From Methanobacteriota archaeon (GTDB lineage Archaea > Thermoplasmatota > Thermoplasmata > RBG-16-68-12), in the NCBI GenBank assembly GCA_005878915.1, contig VBML01000056.1:1-39241 (forward strand): 39,241 nucleotides of DNA, read 5' to 3'. The position numbers and the translations under genes are program-made. How positions within the stretch are numbered: position 1 is the first letter of the stretch; every line of letters starts with the position of its first letter. This document shows, in pieces, positions 6,929 through 18,380 of the stretch. The notes under the pieces were generated by a model that was given only the letters and a program-made list of their open reading frames with translations, did not search any database and had not been told where the DNA came from.

Positions 6929-7114
6929 GGGCCCGTAGCTCAGCTAGGTTGGACGGCGGCGGAACAACGCCATCGTCCCTAGAAAGAGCATCCGGCTTTT
7001 AACCCACAGGCTCTCGGGTTCGCCCAAGAACCAGCGGGTGAAGAAACCGGATGGTCCGGGGTTCGAAAGCGCCTTGTTGCTCCGCGACAGGGCCCGAAAA
7101 TCCCCGCGGGCCCG
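6929..7114 (+). tRNA. tRNA-Lys(UUU) with three introns; exons about 6929-6949, 6985-7001, 7046-7067, 7101-7114
   Basis: Joined exons give GGGCCCGTAGCTCAGCTAGGT-AGAGCATCCGGCTTTTA-ACCGGATGGTCCGGGGTTCGAA-TCCCCGCGGGCCCG: acceptor 7/7 bp, D-stem GCTC/GAGC, anticodon stem TCCGG/CCGGA, loop CTTTTAA, T-stem CGGGG/CCCCG, T-loop TTCGAAT, discriminator G. Confidence 0.9.
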
Positions 7115-7176: not shown

Positions 7177-7428
7177 ATGAAATTCAACGTGCTCCAGCAC
7201 AAGCTCGTCCCGGAGCATCGGCTGCTCGCGGCCGACGAGGCCGAGCGGGTCCTGAAGACCCTGCGCATCACGAAAGACCAGCTCCCGAAGATCAAGAAGA
7301 ACGACCCTGTCATCAAGGTCCTCGAAAGGGTCCACGGCCCGATCGCCGAGGGTCGCATCATCAAGGTCACGCGCCTGTCCGAGACCGCGGGGGTCACGGA
7401 GGCGTACCGTCTCGTGATTGGGAGGTAG
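7177..7428 (+). CDS. rpoH: DNA-directed RNA polymerase subunit H
   Basis: MKFNVLQHKLVPEHRLLAADEAERVLKTLRITKDQLPKI...; immediately upstream of rpoB. Confidence 0.95.
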   Translation: MKFNVLQHKLVPEHRLLAADEAERVLKTLRITKDQLPKIKKNDPVIKVLERVHGPIAEGRIIKVTRLSETAGVTEAYRLVIGR

Positions 7429-7431
7429 AAC

Positions 7432-10400
7432 ATGCGGGAACTCGTGGAAGCGTTCTTCCGGGAACGTTCAATCGTCAACCACCACATCGCCTCGTTCAAC
7501 GACTTTCTGCCGACGATCGACAACCCGAGCTCGCGGATGCAGAAGATCGTCGACAGCATGCGCTCCTCCCCGGAGGATGACCGGCGGGGAATCTTCAAGC
7601 TCGACGAGGACCGGACGGAGGGTGACATCATCGAGATCCGGATTGGCCGCCGCCGGGACGACCGCGGGCGCGCGGACATCGACGCGAAACCGACGATCTC
7701 CGTCGGGACGCCGATCGTCAAGGAGGCAAACGGCGCGACGCACGCCTTGACACCGATGGAGGCCCGTCTTCGGAACCTGAACTACACCGCCCCAATCTAC
7801 CTCGACTTCACCGTCGTCGAGAACGGGATCGAGCGGGAGCCGGAGCGGGTCCACATCGGGAACCTGCCAATCATGGTGAAGTCGAAGAAGTGCTCCCTTC
7901 ACAAGGAGAACCTCGAGATCGAGGGCGAGCTCACCGAATCCGAGTACCGCCAGAAGCTGATCGAGATCGGGGAGGACCCGCACGACCCCGGCGGGTACTT
8001 CATCATCGGAGGCACGGAGCGGGCGCTGATCTCCCTCGAGGACCTCGCGCCGAACCGCGTCCTCGTGGAGTACAACGAACGGTACGGCCGCCGCGTTCCC
8101 GTGGCGAAGGTGTTCTCCCAGCGGGAGGGGTACCGAGCCCTCACCCTCGTCGAGATGAAGAAGGACGGGATGCTCATCGTGACCGTCCCGACCGCCTCCG
8201 GCCAGATCCCGCTCATCATCCTGATGAAAGCCCTCGGCACGGAGAAGGACGAGGAGATCTACAACGCCGTCGTCTCCGTTCCGGAGATGGCGAACATCGT
8301 GTACGCGAACATCGAGGAGTGCCAGAACAAGAAGCTGTACCCGCCGAGTGGGATCTTCTCCCGCGACGACGCGGTGAACTACCTCGAGAAGAAATTCGCG
8401 ACGGGGCAGGCGAAGGAATACCGGACGAAAAAGGTCGAATCGATCCTCGACCGCTCCTTGCTCCCCCACCTCGGCGACACGCGGGAGGACCGGATCAAGA
8501 AGGCCGTCTTCCTCGGTCGGGTCGCGCGGTCCGTCCTCGAACTCCATCTCGGCAAACGGCGGGAGGACGACAAGGACCACTACGCGAACAAGCGACTGAA
8601 GCTCGCCGGCGACCTCATGGAGGACCTGTTCCGGGTCGCATTCGCGAACCTCGTCAAGGACCTGAAGTACCAGCTCGAGCGGTCCTACGCCCGCCGGAAG
8701 GAGATCAAGATCAGCTCCGCGATCCGGCCCGACCTCTTGAGCCAGCGGCTCCTGCACGCCCTCGCGACCGGGAACTGGGTCGGGGGCCGCGCCGGGGTGA
8801 GCCAGCTCCTCGACCGCACGTCGAACATGTCCGCCCTCAGCCACCTCCGGAGGGTCACATCGCCGCTCACGCGGTCCCAGCCGCATTTCGAGGCCCGCGA
8901 CCTACATCCGACGCAGTGGGGCCGGCTGTGCCCGAACGAGACGCCGGAGGGACAGAACTGTGGTCTCGTGAAAAACTGTGCGCTCGTGATCGACGTGTCC
9001 GAAGGGTTCCCCGAGGAGGAGGTCAAGCTCCTCCTCGCTGACCTCGGCACCCGTCAAGTCCGGGGCCAGACCACGGCAACGCGGGTTTACGTGAACGGGG
9101 ACCTGGTCGGCCTTCACGAGGATCCCGCCACGCTGATCTCGGAGATCCGCGACCGTCGGCGGGCCGGCCTCCTCAGCCCCGAGGTCAATGTCCACTTCGA
9201 CGAGAACATGAACGAGGTCCTGATCAACTGCGACGAGGGCCGGATCCGCCGGCCGCTCCTCGTCGTGAAGACCGGCCACCTCGTCCTGACGCGGAAGCAT
9301 CAGGAGGACCTCAAGATCGGCAAGTGGCGGTTCAGCGACCTCATTCGAAACGGGATCGTGGAGTGGATCGACGCGGAGGAGGAGGAGGACACGTACATCG
9401 CCCTCTATCCCTACGAAGTCCCGCCACGGTGCAAGGAGTGCAAGGAGCCGATCAGCCGGAGCGACGTCGAGTGGGCGAACCTCGGCGCAGCGAGCGAGAC
9501 CGTGGACCTCCAGTGCAAGCGGTGCGGAAAGACGTTCAGCGTGAAGTCGTCCCTGACGGCGGACCACACGCATTGCGAGGTGGACCCGCTCGTGATCCTC
9601 GGGGTCGCCAGCGGCCTCGTCCCCTATCCGGAGCACAACTCCTCGCCGCGGGTCACGATGGGCGCGGGCATGGCGAAGCAGTCGCTGGGCCTCGCCGCGA
9701 GCAACTACCGGACACGGCCGGACACGCGCAGCCACCTCCTCCATTACCCGCAGCAGCCCACGGTCCAGACGGAGTCGATGAAGTACCTCTCGTTCAACGA
9801 ACGCCCGGCGGGACAGAACTTCGTCGTCGCGGTGATGTCCCACCACGGCTATAACATGGAGGACGCGATCGTCATGAACAAGGCGTCCATCGACCGCGGG
9901 CTCGGCCGATCCTCGTTCATGCGGACGTATCGCGCGGAAGAGCGACGGTACCCTGGGGGGCAGGAGGACCATTTCGAGATCCCCTCGCCGGACGTGCGGG
10001 GCGCTCGCGCAGACCTGTCGTACGCGAATCTGACGCCGGACGACGGCTTGATCTCCCCCGAGGTCCTCGTCCAGGGTGGGGAGGTGCTCATCGGGAAGAC
10101 CAGCCCGCCCCGATTCCTGGAAGAGGAGACGGACTTCCTCACGCCGCAGAAGCGGCGGGAGACCTCGATCACCGTCCGCCACGGGGAGAGCGGGTGGGTC
10201 GACTCGGTGATGCTCACGGAGAGCGAGAACGGCTCGAAGCTCGCGAAGGTGAAGGTCCGCGACCTGCGGGTCCCCGAGCTGGGGGACAAATTCGCGTCGC
10301 GTCACGGGCAGAAGGGGGTCATCGGTCTTATCGCGCCTCAGGAGGACTTGCCGTTCACCGGGGACGGGATCATACCGGACCTGATCATCAATCCCCACGC

Positions 10401-11022
10401 GATTCCGTCGCGGATGACCGTTGCCCACGTCCTCGAGCAGATCGGCGGCAAGGTCGGGGCGATGGAGGGCCGGTTCATCGACGGCACGCCCTTCAGCGGC
10501 GAGCGGGAGGAGTCCCTCCGCGCCGCGCTCGAAGCGAACGGCTTCAAGACGAACGGCAAGGAGATCCTCTATGACGGGGCAACGGGTCGGATGATCCCCG
10601 CGGAAATCTTCGTCGGCGTGATCTACTACCAGAAGCTGCACCACATGGTCTCCGGGAAGCTCCACGTGCGTTCCCGCGGCCCCGTGCAGATCCTCACCCG
10701 CCAGCCCACGGAGGGGCGCTCCCGCCAAGGCGGGCTGCGGTTCGGCGAGATGGAGCGGGACTGCCTGATCGGCCACGGGGCGGCGATGGTGATCAAGGAC
10801 CGCCTGTTGGACGAATCGGACGGGACGATCCAGTACGTCTGCGGGAACGCCGAATGTGGCCACTTCGCGATCAAGGACCGGAAGGGCATGCTCCGGTGCC
10901 CCGTCGACGACAACACGTCGAAGATCTACCCCGTGCAAACGTCGTACGCGTTCAAGCTCCTGCTCGATGAGATGCTGTCGCTTGGGGTCGCGATGCGTCT
11001 CCAGTTGGAGGACTTGAAATGA
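7432..11022 (+). CDS. rpoB: DNA-directed RNA polymerase subunit B (unsplit)
   Basis: 1196 aa; [85 protein letters not shown]. Confidence 0.97.
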
Positions 11023-14000
11023 TGGGCATCCGCGGTCTCACGAAACGGATCCGGGCGATCCGGTTCGCCCTCCTCAGCCCGGACGAGATCCGGCGGATGT
11101 CGGCGACGAAGATCATCACGGCGGACACGTACGACGACGACGGTTTTCCGATCGACATGGGGCTAATGGACTCCCACCTCGGCGTCATCGAGCCTGGACT
11201 GAGGTGCAAGACGTGCGGCGGCAAGGTCGACGACTGCCCCGGGCACTTCGGGCACATCGACCTCGCGATGCCGGTGATTCACGTCGGGTACGTGAAGGAG
11301 CTCAAGAAGCTCCTGCAGGCAACGTGCCGCCGATGCGGACGCCTCCTCTTGACGAAACAACAGGCGGAGGAGTTCCGCGTGGAGATGGAACAGATGGAGG
11401 AGCTCGGGGGCGAGCAGGACCTCCAGTACGTCACGAAGGAGACGGCACGGGAGGCGACGAAACGCCAGCGTTGCCCGCACTGCGGGGAAGAACAGCAGAA
11501 GATCACCCTCGACAAGCCCACGACGTTCCGGGAGAACGGCCACAAGCTGACGCCGAAGGAAGTGCGAGAGCGGCTCGAGCGGATCCCGAACGGGGACCTC
11601 CAGGTCCTCGGGATCAATCCGGATGTCGCGCGGCCGGAGTGGATGATCCTCACCGCCCTCCTCGTGCCGCCCGTCACGGTGCGTCCGTCGATCACGCTGG
11701 AAAGCGGGGACCGCTCCGAGGACGACCTGACCCACAAGCTCGTCGATGTCCTGCGCATCAACCAACGGCTCCGGGAGAACCGGGACGCGGGCGCGCCGCA
11801 GTTGATCGTCGAGGACCTGTGGGAGCTCCTCCAGTACCACGTCACGACGTACTTCGACAACCAGACGAGCGGGATTCCGCCCGCCCGGCATCGGTCGGGC
11901 CGGCCGCTGAAGACGCTCGTCCAGCGGCTCAAGGGAAAGGAGGGCAGGTTCCGGTCGAACCTCAGCGGGAAGCGCGTGAACTTCAGCGCCCGAACGGTGA
12001 TCTCACCGGACCCGGTCCTCTCCATCAACGAGGTCGGCGTCCCTGTCGAGGCGGCGCGGGAGCTCACGGTGCCGATCCATGTCCAGTCGTACAACATCGA
12101 TTTCGTGAAGGAGTGGGTGAAGCGGGGGCCCACGCCCGCTGCGCCCGTCGGGGAGTTCTACATCCCCGGCGTGAACTACGTGATCCGATCCGATGGGCGC
12201 CGCATCCGGGTCACGGACAAGAACGCGGAGGCCGTCTCGGACACGGTGGAAATCGGGTATGTCGTCGAGCGCCAGCTCCTCGACGGGGACATCGTCCTCT
12301 TCAACCGGCAGCCCTCGCTGCACAGGATGTCGATGATGGCCCACGAGGTCCGCGTGATGCCGCACAAGACGTTCCGCTTCAATTTGGCCGTGTGCGTTGC
12401 GGGTGGGACTAGGGTCGACGTCGGTGGCGTGTCACGGCCCATCGCCCAGCTCCGCAACTGCTGGAAGGAAAGCTCGGTGGCCACGTATGACTGGGAGGGC
12501 AGGCGCCCCGCGGAGACCGAGCTCAGCGCCTATTGGGCCTTGAAGCCTCGGGAGTTCGGACTGGAAGTCTTCCAATTCAGGACTCAATCCGGACGAGAGC
12601 TAACCGCGACCGGCGATCACCCCATCTACACTCAGGGGGGAAGAGTCCCCTGCAGGGACTTGAGGGTCGGGGACCGGGTAATTGCCAAACCGGAGGCGTA
12701 TCCGGAATACGAGGAGCGCGAGCTTGTGCTCCTGACCGAAGACCAATTCGTCCGCAGGGCGCCACGGGGAACGTACATCGCCCATGCGATTCAGGAACTC
12801 TCCAAGCGAGGCCTTCTCCCGCTGAAATCCCTCAATCAACCCCGGGCCCTGGCCGTCGCGAGGCTCGTCGGACATCTCTTCGGGGACGGGACCCTGATTG
12901 TGAACGGGCCCACCCCGCGAGCGGTCTTCCGGGCTGCTAAGGAGGACCTCGAAGCCATCCGGCAGGATCTGCAGTCCCTCGGCTTCCCACCGGGGAAACC
13001 GAAGAAGCGCTCCGGGGGAGGCATCATCCACACGGTCTCTGGAAAGGAGCTCGTCGTGTCGGGGGAAGGCTGGAGCATGGAGGTCCGGAGCAAGCCGTTC
13101 TGTGCATTCCTCTATGCCCTCGGGGCCCCCGCGGGTGACAAGGTGAAATCCCAGTATCGAGCCCCCCCGTGGGTTCGGACTCGGGGAACGCCGGCGCAGC
13201 TCAAGAAGGCTTTTCTCGCGAGCTATTTCGGCTCGGAGCTCTCCCTCCCCGCAGTGAGGATCCACCATCCCGGCAAGTTCCGCGATCCCGTATTCAAGGT
13301 GAGCAAGGTCGAAGGCCTGGAAGCCTCTGGAACGAGATGGATTCGCGACATCGGCGCGATGCTGCGTCCCTTCGGCGCCGGAATCGTCTCCGTTGCCCAA
13401 TCCGAGGGCAACATCCGAAAGGACGGGAGCCGGACGGTCGTCCTCGCGGCCCGCCTCCGCGCGGGTTCCCGCGACCTCGTGAACCTGTATGGCAGAGTGG
13501 GGTATGGATACAACCAACGGGCCGAAGGCAAGGCGCGGATCGCCTACGCGTACCTCGGTGAGAGCTCTGCCTTCTTGGAGCGCCGGGCAAACGCCCTGCG
13601 GCAGGTACGCCGCATGGGCCGGTGGCCCCGCAACCGGATCAGGGCGGTGGCCCTGGAGTCGGGGATTCCGGTCGCCACTCTCTATGGATGGCGGAGCCGG
13701 GGAAGGGGCGCCGCCGAGCTGAGGATGACTCCGGAGTTCCCCACCCTGGACGAATGGGCGAAGGGGGCGGTGTTCGACGAGCGGGCGGGCCTGGTCTACG
13801 ATACGGTTGTCACGAAAGAGCCCGCTGTGGTCCCCGAGGTCTACGACGTCACCACTGCCGCTGAAACCCACACGTTCTTTGCGAACGGCATTCTTACCGG
13901 TAACTGTCCCCCATATAACGCTGACTTCGACGGCGACGAGATGAACCTCCACGTCCTCCAGAGCGAGGAGGCCCGTGCGGAGGCCCGCGTCCTGATGCGG

Positions 14001-15320
14001 GTGCAGGAACACATCCTCAGCCCCCGGTTCGGGGGGCCGGTGATCGGCGGGATCCACGACCACATCACGGGCGCCTTCCTCCTGACGTACAAGGACGCGA
14101 AGTTCACGAAGGAGGAGACCGCGTACATCCAGAGCAAGATCGGCATCCGGGACCTGCCCCCGCCGGCGATCAAGAAGGGAGGCCAGGAATACTGGACGGG
14201 CAAGCAGTTGTTCTCGATGATCCTGCCGAAGGACCTGAGCCTCACGTTCAAGTCGTCGATCGCCCCGAAGGGGCTTATCTCCCTGAAAGAGCTGAAGGAG
14301 GAAGACGCCCTCGTCGTCATCAAGAACGGCCAGGTCGCGAGCGGGACGATCGACGAGAACGCGGTCGGTGCGTTCAAGGGGAAGATCCTGGACAAGATCG
14401 CACGGGACTACGGGCCCGACGCCGCGCGGGAGTTCATCGATAAGACGACGAAGCTCGCGATCGGGGCGATCATGGTCCGCGGGTTCACGACGGGCATCGA
14501 CGATGAGGACATTCCGGAGGAGGCGAAGAAGCAGATCGCGGAGGTCCTTCGCAAGGCCGTCGCGGACGTCGAGGAGCTCGTCGAGGCGTACAAGCGCGGC
14601 GAGCTGGAGCAGATGCCCGGCCGGTCTCTCGAGGAGACCCTCGAGGTCGACGCGATGAAGACCCTCGGGCGGGCACGTGACCAAGCAGGGCAGATCGCGT
14701 CGAAACACCTCGGGATGGAGAACTCCGCGGTGATCATGGCCCGCTCCGGCGCGCGCGGCTCGATGCTGAACCTGTCCCAGATGGCGGGGTCGATCGGCCA
14801 GCAGGCGGTCCGGGGCGAGCGGCTCTCCCGGGGGTGCTGGAACTGAACGCTCCCGCACTTCAAGAAGGGCGACCTGGGCGCGGAGGCCAAGGGCTTCGTC
14901 CGGTCCTCGTACAAGTCCGGGCTCTATCCCACGGAGTACTTCTTCCACGCGATGGGCGGGCGCGAGGGGCTCGTCGACACCGCGGTGCGGACATCGCGGT
15001 CGGGCTACATGCAGCGCCGGCTCATCAATGCCCTCGAGGACCTGAAGGTGAAGGAGGACGGCACCGTGCGGAACACGGGGGACACGATCATCCAGTTCCG
15101 GTTCGGCGAGGACGGCGTCGACCCGTCCCGGTCCGTCCAGGGGAAGCCCGTGGACGTCGACGATATCCTCCAGGAGGTCCTCGGCGAGGAGCCGTCCTGG
15201 CAGGAGCGGCTGAAAGAGCAGGACGTCGCGTCGTACGGCCTCACGGAGAAAGACATGTCCCCGGAGATCAGCGAGGAAGAGGTCGAGGTCGAAGAGGAAG
15301 AGCCCACCACGGAGGAGTGA
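11019..15320 (+). CDS. rpoA1: DNA-directed RNA polymerase subunit A', intein-containing and interrupted by an in-frame TGA at 14844-14846
   Basis: ATGA overlap with rpoB; ...[78 protein letters not shown]... stays in the same frame on both sides of the TGA and ends at 15320. Confidence 0.9.
12393..13904 (+). mobile_element. Intein in RpoA' (504 aa) with LAGLIDADG-type endonuclease region
   Basis: [15 protein letters not shown]...[13 protein letters not shown]...[11 protein letters not shown]...[36 protein letters not shown]: the host motif is rejoined exactly. Confidence 0.95.
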
Positions 15321-15323
15321 GGG

Positions 15324-18300
15324 ATGAGCAAGGCGTCGACGGTGGACGCGCTTCGGAAACGAGGCGTCGCGAAGCGCACGGCGGAGATCCTCGCGAACGC
15401 CGGGTTCACGCTTGAGAAAATCGCCGGGTCCAAGCCGGACCGGCTGAAGAAGTTCATCGGGGAGAAGGATGCGACCCGCATCCTCCAGAAGGTTGGCGGT
15501 GCAACGGCCGAGAAGGCCCCTCCAACCTCCAAGGGGAAGGCGCCCGCGGGGCCGAAGGTGAAGCCCAAACCCGGGGCCCCGGCGATCCCCGCGGAGGGCG
15601 AGGCGCCGCCGGAGCTCCCGGCGAAGGCCCCCCAGGTCTCCAAGGGAGAGCACGAGATCTACGACGGCCTCAAGGAGATTGGCCGGTACCTCCCGCGCTC
15701 CCTGGTCGGGGAGCTCGCCACGAAGATGCACGGGATCAAGGTGGGGCGGAAGAAGCTGCTCGAGGTCCTTTCACGGGTCTCCGACCGGTACGAGTCCCAC
15801 CGGATCGACCCGAACGAAAGCGCGGGGATCGTGTCCGCGCAATCGATCGGTGAACCCGGGACTCAAATGAGCCTGCCCTACGAAGAGAGAATCATCCTGC
15901 GCGATCGAGACGGGCTGCGCGTCGTCCGCATCGGGGAGGCCGTGGATGAGCTCATGGCCCGGCACCACTCGAAACACGAGGGCCCGACGGAATGGTGCGA
16001 TCTCCCTGCGGCTGCGGCCCTCCGGGTCCCTAGCCTCACCGGCGATGGGCGGATCGTTTGGAAGCCGGTTCGGTCCGTCAGCCGCCACGCCCACGACCGG
16101 CCGCTGGTCCGGATTCGAACGCGAACCGGTCGCACGGTGACCGCAACAGGCGACCACTCGTTCGTTACACGGCGTGGGGGCCGCATTACCCCCGTTCCCG
16201 GGCGTTCCCTGAAGCGGGGAGACCGAATCCCCGTCATGCGCCGCTGGTCGGTTCCCGACCCCGACTCGATCCTCGACATGAGCCGCGTCCTTCCGAAGGA
16301 AGAGTTCTGGTACGGGAGCGAACTGGGAAAGGCCCGCGCCCTTGGCCGAGCTTGGCGGAAGGGCTTCGGCCGAGATTTCGTCGTCCCGGTAGGTCCCGAC
16401 ATGCTGATGCGCCATCTTGACGGACGGTCTCAGATCGCAATCGACGAGGGGTTCGTCTACCCCTACCAGAACCACAGTCGCGCCCGCATCCCTGAGCGCC
16501 TCCCCCTCGACCCGACCTTGGGCTGGCTGCTTGGCGCGTACTTGTCAGAGGGATGGGCGGCCCGATATTACGTCAATATCTCCAACTCGGAAACTCGGTT
16601 CCTCGAAAGAACTCGTGACGCCGCGCGGAGGTTGGGCCTCCACTACGGCGAATACGACAACCGCCGGGGTTTCTCGGCGGGCCATGATCTTCATGTTCGG
16701 TCGACCGTCCTCGCGACGTTCCTCCAGGCGGTGTGCGGGGTTGGGTCGTCGGAGAAGCGGGTGCCCGAGTTTGCCTACAGCGCCAACGATGCGTGCGCGT
16801 CCGCTCTGTTGCGCGCGTATTTCGAAGGCGATGGGAACGTTTCCGTCGCGCGCGGAGCGATTCGCGTGAGTTCGAACTCGAAAGAGTTGGTCGACGGAAT
16901 CGCCCTCCTGCTTTGCCGATTCGGAATTCTCTCGAGCAAGGGCGTGACGGGAAGCCAGCATACACTCTGGATCCCGCGAAGGTACGCGGCCCGGTTCCGC
17001 GACGAAATCGGCTTCGAGTCCGTGGAGAAGGTGAAGCTCCTTCAGGAGCTCTGTTCCCATCCGAGTGCCGCGTACACGTACGATGCGCTGGACATCGTTG
17101 CGGGACAAGGGGAAATCCTGCGCGACCTGGCGGTGAAACTCAAGATTCCCACGCGACACGTAAACAACTTTACACGACGCCAGCGGATCGGGCGAGCGAC
17201 ACTGGCGCGCTACATGCTCCGGTTCGAAGCGCGCGCCCGAGAGCTAGGGGTCGTCATCGACAAGGAGATGCTCCGTTTGCAAGCCTTTGTCGATGAGGAC
17301 GTCACATGGGACGAGGTCCTGGAGGTCGAAGAGCTTTCACCCCCCGACGGGCCCGTCTACGACTTGTCTGTGCCCGGCCTCGAGACGTTCACGACTGCGG
17401 AAGGGATTGTCACGCACAACACAATGCGTACGTTCCACTACGCGGGTGTCGCCGAAATGAACGTGACGCTCGGACTCCCGCGTCTCATTGAGATCGTCGA
17501 CGCGCGACGGGTGCCGTCCACACCGATCATGGAGATCCACATCAAGGAGGGGACGAGGGAACTCGACAAGATGCGGAAGATCGCGCAAGAGATCGAGATG
17601 ACAAACCTCGAGGACATCACGGACATCGAGACGGACCTCGTGAACATGCAAGTGCTGATCTTCCCGGACGATCACCGGATGAAGGCACGGGGGGTGACGC
17701 ACTCCGAGCTCGAGGAAAAGCTCCGGAAGTTCGCGACCCCGAAGGAGCTGAAGCGGACCGTGGGGACGGCGACGAAGGTCGTGAAGGGCTTCGTCGTCGA
17801 GGCCGGGGAGGCGTCCTTCAAGAAGCTCCAGCGCATCCTCGAGCAGATGAAGGGCACCCGGATCAAGGGAATCGATGGCATTCGTCGCGCGATCATCCGG
17901 AGACGGGGAGAACGGTATGTGCTTTACACAGAAGGCTCGAACCTCGCGAAGGTCCTCGAGCTGCCGTACGCGGACCCGTCGCAGACGACGACGAACTCAA
18001 TCCAAGAAATCTATGACGTCCTCGGAGTGGAGGCGGCGCGCAACTCGATTATCAAGGAGGCGTACGACACCCTGCAGGAACAGGGGCTCACCGTGGACAT
18101 CCGCCACATCATGCTCGTGTCGGACATGATGACGAACGACGGGGACGTCAAGGCGATTGGTCGCCACGGGATCTCGGGGCGGAAGTCCAGCGTCCTGGCC
18201 CGGGCCGCGTTCGAGATCACCGCGCACCACCTCCTTCATGCGGCGATCACCGGAGAGGTGGACGCCCTCGACGGCGTGGCGGAGAACGTGATTGTGGGGC

Positions 18301-18380
18301 AGCCGGTCACCCTGGGAACAGGGGCCGTGAACCTCGTCTACCAGCCGCCGAAGCTGGCGAAGCCCGAGGCGTCGAAGTGA
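15324..18380 (+). CDS. rpoA2: DNA-directed RNA polymerase subunit A'', intein-containing, with N-terminal extension
   Basis: RIDPNESAGIVSAQSIGEPGTQM[intein]TMRTFHYAGVAEMNVTLGLPRLIEIVDARR...; GRHGISGRKSSVLARAAFEITAHHLLHAA. Confidence 0.96.
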   Translation: MSKASTVDALRKRGVAKRTAEILANAGFTLEKIAGSKPDRLKKFIGEKDATRILQKVGGATAEKAPPTSKGKAPAGPKVKPKPGAPAIPAEGEAPPELPAKAPQVSKGEHEIYDGLKEIGRYLPRSLVGELATKMHGIKVGRKKLLEVLSRVSDRYESHRIDPNESAGIVSAQSIGEPGTQMSLPYEERIILRDRDGLRVVRIGEAVDELMARHHSKHEGPTEWCDLPAAAALRVPSLTGDGRIVWKPVRSVSRHAHDRPLVRIRTRTGRTVTATGDHSFVTRRGGRITPVPGRSLKRGDRIPVMRRWSVPDPDSILDMSRVLPKEEFWYGSELGKARALGRAWRKGFGRDFVVPVGPDMLMRHLDGRSQIAIDEGFVYPYQNHSRARIPERLPLDPTLGWLLGAYLSEGWAARYYVNISNSETRFLERTRDAARRLGLHYGEYDNRRGFSAGHDLHVRSTVLATFLQAVCGVGSSEKRVPEFAYSANDACASALLRAYFEGDGNVSVARGAIRVSSNSKELVDGIALLLCRFGILSSKGVTGSQHTLWIPRRYAARFRDEIGFESVEKVKLLQELCSHPSAAYTYDALDIVAGQGEILRDLAVKLKIPTRHVNNFTRRQRIGRATLARYMLRFEARARELGVVIDKEMLRLQAFVDEDVTWDEVLEVEELSPPDGPVYDLSVPGLETFTTAEGIVTHNTMRTFHYAGVAEMNVTLGLPRLIEIVDARRVPSTPIMEIHIKEGTRELDKMRKIAQEIEMTNLEDITDIETDLVNMQVLIFPDDHRMKARGVTHSELEEKLRKFATPKELKRTVGTATKVVKGFVVEAGEASFKKLQRILEQMKGTRIKGIDGIRRAIIRRRGERYVLYTEGSNLAKVLELPYADPSQTTTNSIQEIYDVLGVEAARNSIIKEAYDTLQEQGLTVDIRHIMLVSDMMTNDGDVKAIGRHGISGRKSSVLARAAFEITAHHLLHAAITGEVDALDGVAENVIVGQPVTLGTGAVNLVYQPPKLAKPEASK
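15870..17420 (+). mobile_element. Intein in RpoA'' (517 aa) with LAGLIDADG endonuclease
   Basis: GTQM|SLPYEERIILRDRDG...TATGDHSFVTRRGG...LGWLLGAYLSEGW...LLRAYFEGDGNVSV...VYDLSVPGLETFTTAEGIVTHN|TMRTFHY. Confidence 0.95.

Follow-up and report, generated by a model that had tools for sequence, protein, structure and literature searches.

A tRNA-Lys(UUU) gene with three bulge-helix-bulge introns in Thermoplasmatota, and an alpha'2-like splicing endonuclease in the same genome

We describe here an interrupted tRNA-Lys(UUU) gene situated upstream of the RNA polymerase genes rpoH and rpoB. The window, by which we mean the whole 39,241 nt stretch of DNA analysed, is contig C148 of a metagenome-assembled genome (2.12 Mb in 239 contigs, 83% complete and 4.4% contaminated). 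Three introns divide the gene into four exons (Table 1), which are contiguous and in linear order at the locus, with no sign there of a split or permuted tRNA gene, and joined in that order they give a complete canonical tRNA-Lys(ttt) in which every stem is paired. The coordinates, the intron lengths of 35, 44 and 33 nt and the mature length of 74 nt are exactly as an earlier note on this DNA had given them.

Table 1. Coordinates of the tRNA-Lys(UUU) gene and the genes that follow it (window positions).
Feature	Coordinates	Strand	Description	Support
tRNA-Lys(UUU) exon 1	6929..6949	+	acceptor 5' strand, D-stem 5' strand, D-loop to position 20	
Intron 1	6950..6984	+	35 nt, D-loop, position 20/21	central helix and covariation
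Exon 2	6985..7001	+	positions 21 to 37, anticodon UUU included	
Intron 2	7002..7045	+	44 nt, canonical 37/38	central helix
Exon 3	7046..7067	+	positions 38 to 59	
Intron 3	7068..7100	+	33 nt, T-loop, position 59/60	central helix, covariation, fold
Exon 4	7101..7114	+	positions 60 to 73: T-stem 3' strand, acceptor 3' strand, discriminator G73	
rpoH	7177..7428	+	RNA polymerase subunit H, 62 nt downstream of tRNA	Pfam RNA_pol_Rpb5_C 1.1e-25
rpoB	7432..11022	+	next gene after rpoH, source of species tree	

All three junctions place a 4-bp helix between two 3-nt bulges, as previously described, and the outer helix is adjacent in introns 2 and 3 and offset by 2 nt in intron 1. In the first motif CTAG (6944-6947) pairs with CTAG (6979-6982), with bulges GT/T and AA/A (the slash marks the predicted cut), and the D-stem outside it, GCTC (6938-6941)/GAGC (6986-6989), is offset from the central helix by the unpaired AG at 6942-6943. 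Intron 2 has CTTT (6996-6999) paired with GAAG (7040-7043), bulges TA/A and AA/A, and the outer helix CCGG/CCGG; an alternative register shifted by one base (39/40 by script count) pairs equally well and yields an identical mature tRNA, and the 37/38 register is unambiguous in relatives. For intron 3 the central helix is TTCG (7062-7065) with CGAA (7095-7098), the bulges are AA/A and AA/T, and the outer helix is GGGG/CCCC. Introns 2 and 3 are strict helix-BHB-helix motifs, with the anticodon stem and T-stem stacked directly outside. The D-loop motif is not strict, and this refines the earlier description: two unpaired nucleotides, A14 and G15 (A6942, G6943), separate the central helix from the D-stem and leave the 3' splice site within an internal loop, and the D-stem is open in the minimum-energy fold of the precursor.

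The prediction that gene finders may miss the locus is borne out, since neither ARAGORN nor Rfam detects a tRNA in the unspliced genomic sequence. An Rfam search of the source genome misses the locus, and a permissive Rfam threshold over it returns chance matches only. ARAGORN calls a tRNA-Lys(ttt) only when all three introns are removed, or when introns 1 and 3 are removed and an anticodon-loop intron is allowed. With an independent Woesearchaeal tRNA-Lys as spliced query against both strands of the window, the locus scores 72 and the best match elsewhere 33 (mean 13.4, sd 5.3). The 186-nt precursor folds with a z score of -5.75 relative to 200 shuffles, and the three central helices are present together in the predicted fold.

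The same gene is found well beyond this contig. A search of 60 genomes recovered the locus in the same genus, family and order, with full-length matches down to 67% identity, and spliced decomposition gives the identical three sites in every complete copy. On the RpoB tree, each of the order's 34 genomes carries three introns, at 20/21, 37/38 and 59/60, and the same tRNA is present in public MAGs labelled Thermoplasmata or 'Euryarchaeota' (e.g. EA_19 and RBG_16_67_27). The aligner put some junctions off the BHB register (42/43 in L061; 39/40 for intron 2 of L040), and 37/38 fits a BHB in both. Independent assemblies refute an artefact of assembling or binning a metagenomic contig: although the genome is fragmented and somewhat contaminated, the same structure lies beside the same rpoH in the order's other 33 tree genomes and in the named public MAGs, and we consider the probability of such an error negligible.

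Across the order the exons are near-identical and the introns have diverged. The mature tRNA, exon 1 included, is 92-100% identical to those of the relatives compared, and intron identity outside the genus falls to 30-74%, against a shuffled-intron baseline of 47%. The central helices show compensatory variants, CTAG/CTAG, CCAG/CTGG, CCCG/CGGG and TTCG/CGGA in the D-loop and TTCG/CGAA and TCCG/CGGA in the T-loop, and this support is strongest for the D-loop intron and weaker for the T-loop intron; there is little variation in the anticodon intron because the exon side of its helix includes the anticodon. In other lineages of the class a minority of D-loop helices have three of four pairs, or lie in another register that the aligner does not resolve.

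The source genome also encodes a tRNA-Lys(CUU) with one canonical intron. Under the wobble rules such a tRNA should decode AAG only and not AAA, yet rpoB and rpoH use eight and two AAA codons respectively, and this favours the interrupted gene as the genuine tRNA-Lys(UUU). The earlier note had named a second intact tRNA-Lys(UUU) gene as grounds for treating this one as a pseudogene, and a gene of that kind does exist on contig C98: it is intronless, ARAGORN calls it Lys(ttt), Rfam scores it at 42.5 bits, and the composition and genes of its contig are host-like, which could suggest that it decodes AAA in place of a tRNA-Lys inactivated by insertions. It does not, however, make a pseudogene of the interrupted gene. 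tRNAs carry U33, and because the C98 gene has C33 and its counterpart in G002, of the same genus, has lost the 5' half, the C98 copy is, judged by its sequence, not a convincing replacement; matches to the decaying array in which it lies are scattered and confined to few relatives. The insertions in the three-intron gene, moreover, are all at BHB sites, its exons are intact, and its introns drift across the order. We reject the pseudogene, which is extremely unlikely given the BHB sites and conserved exons, and with it a split or permuted gene, the exons being contiguous and in order at this locus. The locus is not a product of chance, gene decay or assembly error, and fold, conservation, synteny and covariation support the original reading of a functional tRNA-Lys(UUU) with BHB introns in the D-loop, anticodon loop and T-loop; as far as sequence can tell, the gene is almost certainly real and functional.

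The C98 array (L090:30-600 in the source genome, G000) is a dense cluster in which five tRNA-like genes, for Phe, Tyr, Pro and Lys-UUU and a class-II-like one with CUU, show unusual traits, C33 among them. It is partly conserved and decaying in a few members of the order, and a GatD-like gene is on the same contig. The tRNAs found in the source genome mostly have no intron or one, and a T-loop-intron pattern search found a 59/60 intron there solely in tRNA-Lys(UUU). In relatives belonging to some families of the order, 59/60 T-loop introns are seen in Met-CAU, Glu-UUC, Leu-UAA and Arg-CCG tRNAs (L208-L237).

Outside the order, three-intron genes are present in G037, G043, G047 and G060, and across the phylum Thermoplasmatota the tRNA-Lys next to rpoH has between zero and three of these introns. 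In most of 40 additional genomes of the phylum, the stretch preceding rpoH contains the same tRNA-Lys, with 0, 1 or 2 introns drawn from those three sites. A Methanomassiliicoccus gene has the D-loop and T-loop introns. The gene order itself is constant: wherever rpoH could be detected, at 139 loci that include those of Woesearchaeota, it lies downstream on the same strand, usually 30-160 nt away. The earlier note considered a three-intron tRNA notable in a Thermoplasmatota-type genome; the trait is not peculiar to this genome, being fixed in the order as sampled and widespread across its class. The RpoB tree (88 rows), which was built rapidly and has long branches and several forks left open, requires at least 6 state changes for the D-loop intron, 4 for the anticodon-loop intron and 8 for the T-loop intron. 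Two entries from G016 (L066 and L121) were excluded from the tree because the 3' part of the tRNA is absent beside rpoH; on its contig C174 this tRNA-Lys, in one family member, is apparently truncated past the anticodon region, directly before rpoH. The scan of relatives' contigs selected for D-loop introns, and the matches listed are examples rather than counts. In the Woesearchaeota entries L111, L136, L160 and L196 the tRNA-Lys(UUU) that precedes rpoH also has an intron in its D-loop, and the gene order, and perhaps the intron, may therefore predate Thermoplasmatota.

That both the introns and the tRNA-Lys/rpoH order are so deeply conserved might reflect a function of the introns themselves, for example in linking the maturation of tRNA-Lys to how the RNA polymerase operon 62 nt downstream is expressed. 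We regard this as very unlikely, because the intron sequence outside the splice helices diverges freely and intronless relatives retain the same gene order.

Typing of the splicing endonuclease, which the earlier note had proposed, gives an alpha'2-like enzyme with two fused repeats. EndA is a 351-residue protein on contig C181 with two PF01974 repeats in one frame, and is the sole PF01974 protein found in this 83% complete genome. Repeat 1 has no catalytic His, and the Tyr-His-Lys set is present only in repeat 2. Its relatives of solved structure include the A. fulgidus and M. jannaschii enzymes, and comparison with these reveals no loop insertion near the active site, at a loop position taken from the literature; over the stretch that aligns, the catalytic chain of the A. 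pernix enzyme (3p1z_B) has 8 more residues. Nearly all relatives with PF01974 matches have two, mostly in one frame, and neither a separate beta subunit gene nor a third EndA unit turned up in this genome or, with few exceptions, in the relatives searched. Within the set aligned, relatives with zero and with three introns have the same two-repeat architecture. EndA fits an alpha'2 enzyme lacking CSL and ASL, and by analogy with its A. fulgidus and T. acidophilum homologues would act as a homodimer. An RtcB fragment is present at a contig end. The supposition that the endonuclease would be of a type tolerant of non-canonical positions is thus not supported by its architecture, as no CSL/ASL-type insertion is apparent.

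The nature of the junctions suggests a plausible model for maturation. Transcription would yield a precursor of about 186 nt with one intron in each of the D, anticodon and T loops, and each intron, which has at its end four bases complementary to the exon just before its 5' splice site, would form a BHB. A homodimeric alpha'2-type EndA would then cut within the bulges, past the second bulge nucleotide on both strands, and an RtcB-type ligase would seal the four exons together, giving the 74-nt tRNA for AAA codons. Although we infer the steps of transcription, cleavage and ligation and the identity of the acting enzyme, we are highly confident in the overall reading of a genuine Thermoplasmatota tRNA-Lys(UUU) gene with three BHB introns excised by an alpha'2 EndA and exons joined by RtcB-type ligation. 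Counting against it are the intronless C98 gene, the departure of motif 1 from a strict BHB, and an assembly that at 83% completeness could miss an EndA subunit or a tRNA-Lys(UUU), the last being offset by the two-repeat EndA of nearly all relatives searched.

Reviews restrict alpha'2 enzymes to strict or canonical BHB motifs (PMC4033280, PMC6379350, PMC12397907), and one of them lists T. acidophilum EndA as narrow (PMC6379350). In the D-loop motif the two nucleotides opposite the 3' bulge are unpaired, and the D-stem does not close in the predicted fold. Excision might thus require a broad-specificity EndA absent from the assembly, or alpha'2 together with an accessory factor. However, neither a second EndA gene nor a loop insertion is seen in this genome or the relatives examined, and some alpha'2 tolerance exists, since the A. 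fulgidus enzyme reportedly processes a relaxed 37/38 motif when the pre-tRNA is full-length (PMC6379350); we consider the need for another factor unlikely. A stronger proposal is that a loop-less alpha'2 EndA has removed a relaxed D-loop intron and two others from an essential tRNA through the age of the order, such that the rule linking multi-intron tRNAs to CSL or ASL fails. This is a possibility that we take seriously without yet favouring it, and if it is true, the same three sites have both gained and lost introns in Thermoplasmatota under one enzyme type.

There are several known systems with which to compare the locus. Multi-intron tRNAs are known from Thermoproteales, with up to three introns (PMC8450103, PMC4090602), from Korarchaeum, ARMAN, M. 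kandleri and M. thermautotrophicus (PMC4033280) and from Asgard archaea (PMC11291895), and 20/21 and 59/60 are listed archaeal intron sites (PMC4090602, PMC3218864, PMC8450103). Thermoproteales such as Pyrobaculum and Thermofilum similarly have tRNAs with as many as three BHB introns, placed both canonically and elsewhere, but with an (alpha-beta)2 EndA containing a Crenarchaea-specific loop and large-scale intron transposition among tRNAs, whereas here there is a loop-less alpha'2-like EndA and a single gene whose three intron sites are constant throughout an order. The Asgard Atabeyarchaeia and Freyarchaeia, likewise uncultured soil archaea with non-canonical and multiple tRNA introns (PMC11291895), are a different lineage in which 92-95% of tRNA genes have introns, unlike the mostly intronless or single-intron tRNAs and the lone 59/60 intron seen here. 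ARMAN, with an epsilon2 EndA, provides multi-intron tRNAs outside Crenarchaeota (PMC4033280), but ARMAN-2 EndA has three units and an ASL loop (PMC12397907), neither of which we see. The tRNA-Ile(UAU) of Cyanidioschyzon merolae also has three introns, in its D-, anticodon and T-arms (PMC9602550), although this is a eukaryotic nuclear gene served by the Sen complex. The same EndA architecture is found in euryarchaea with alpha4 or alpha'2 enzymes (A. fulgidus, T. acidophilum), whose tRNAs are described with one canonical intron (PMC4090602) and whose enzymes are narrow (PMC6379350), in contrast to the three introns, two of them non-canonical, described here.

Searching the open-access literature, we found no earlier report of a multi-intron tRNA in Thermoplasmatota, of order-wide fixation, or of pairing with a loop-less alpha'2 enzyme. 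Single cases may sit in databases, because the tRNAscan-SE 2.0 models already drew on euryarchaeal non-canonical introns (PMC8450103). The tRNA-Lys(UUU) described here is a deeply conserved multi-intron tRNA in a new lineage with an unexpected type of enzyme, and inventories of Thermoplasmatota tRNAs built with simple finders omit it. Reviews attribute the single canonical introns of euryarchaea to alpha4 and alpha'2 enzymes that cut only strict BHB motifs, and this idea of intron-enzyme coevolution is directly testable with syntenic orthologues having 0-3 introns across the phylum and a two-repeat EndA in nearly all genomes of the class searched. The natural pairs with and without introns also lend themselves to the study of tRNA intron gain and loss.

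We also note two features of the RNA polymerase genes elsewhere in the window. Both large-subunit halves (11019-14846 and 15324-18380) contain intein splicing domains, with a LAGLIDADG domain in the second. The first rpoA frame stops inside Rpb1 domain 4 (about 14830-14960) and its expected continuation is seemingly in another frame, in what seems to be a frameshift in the assembly or the gene.
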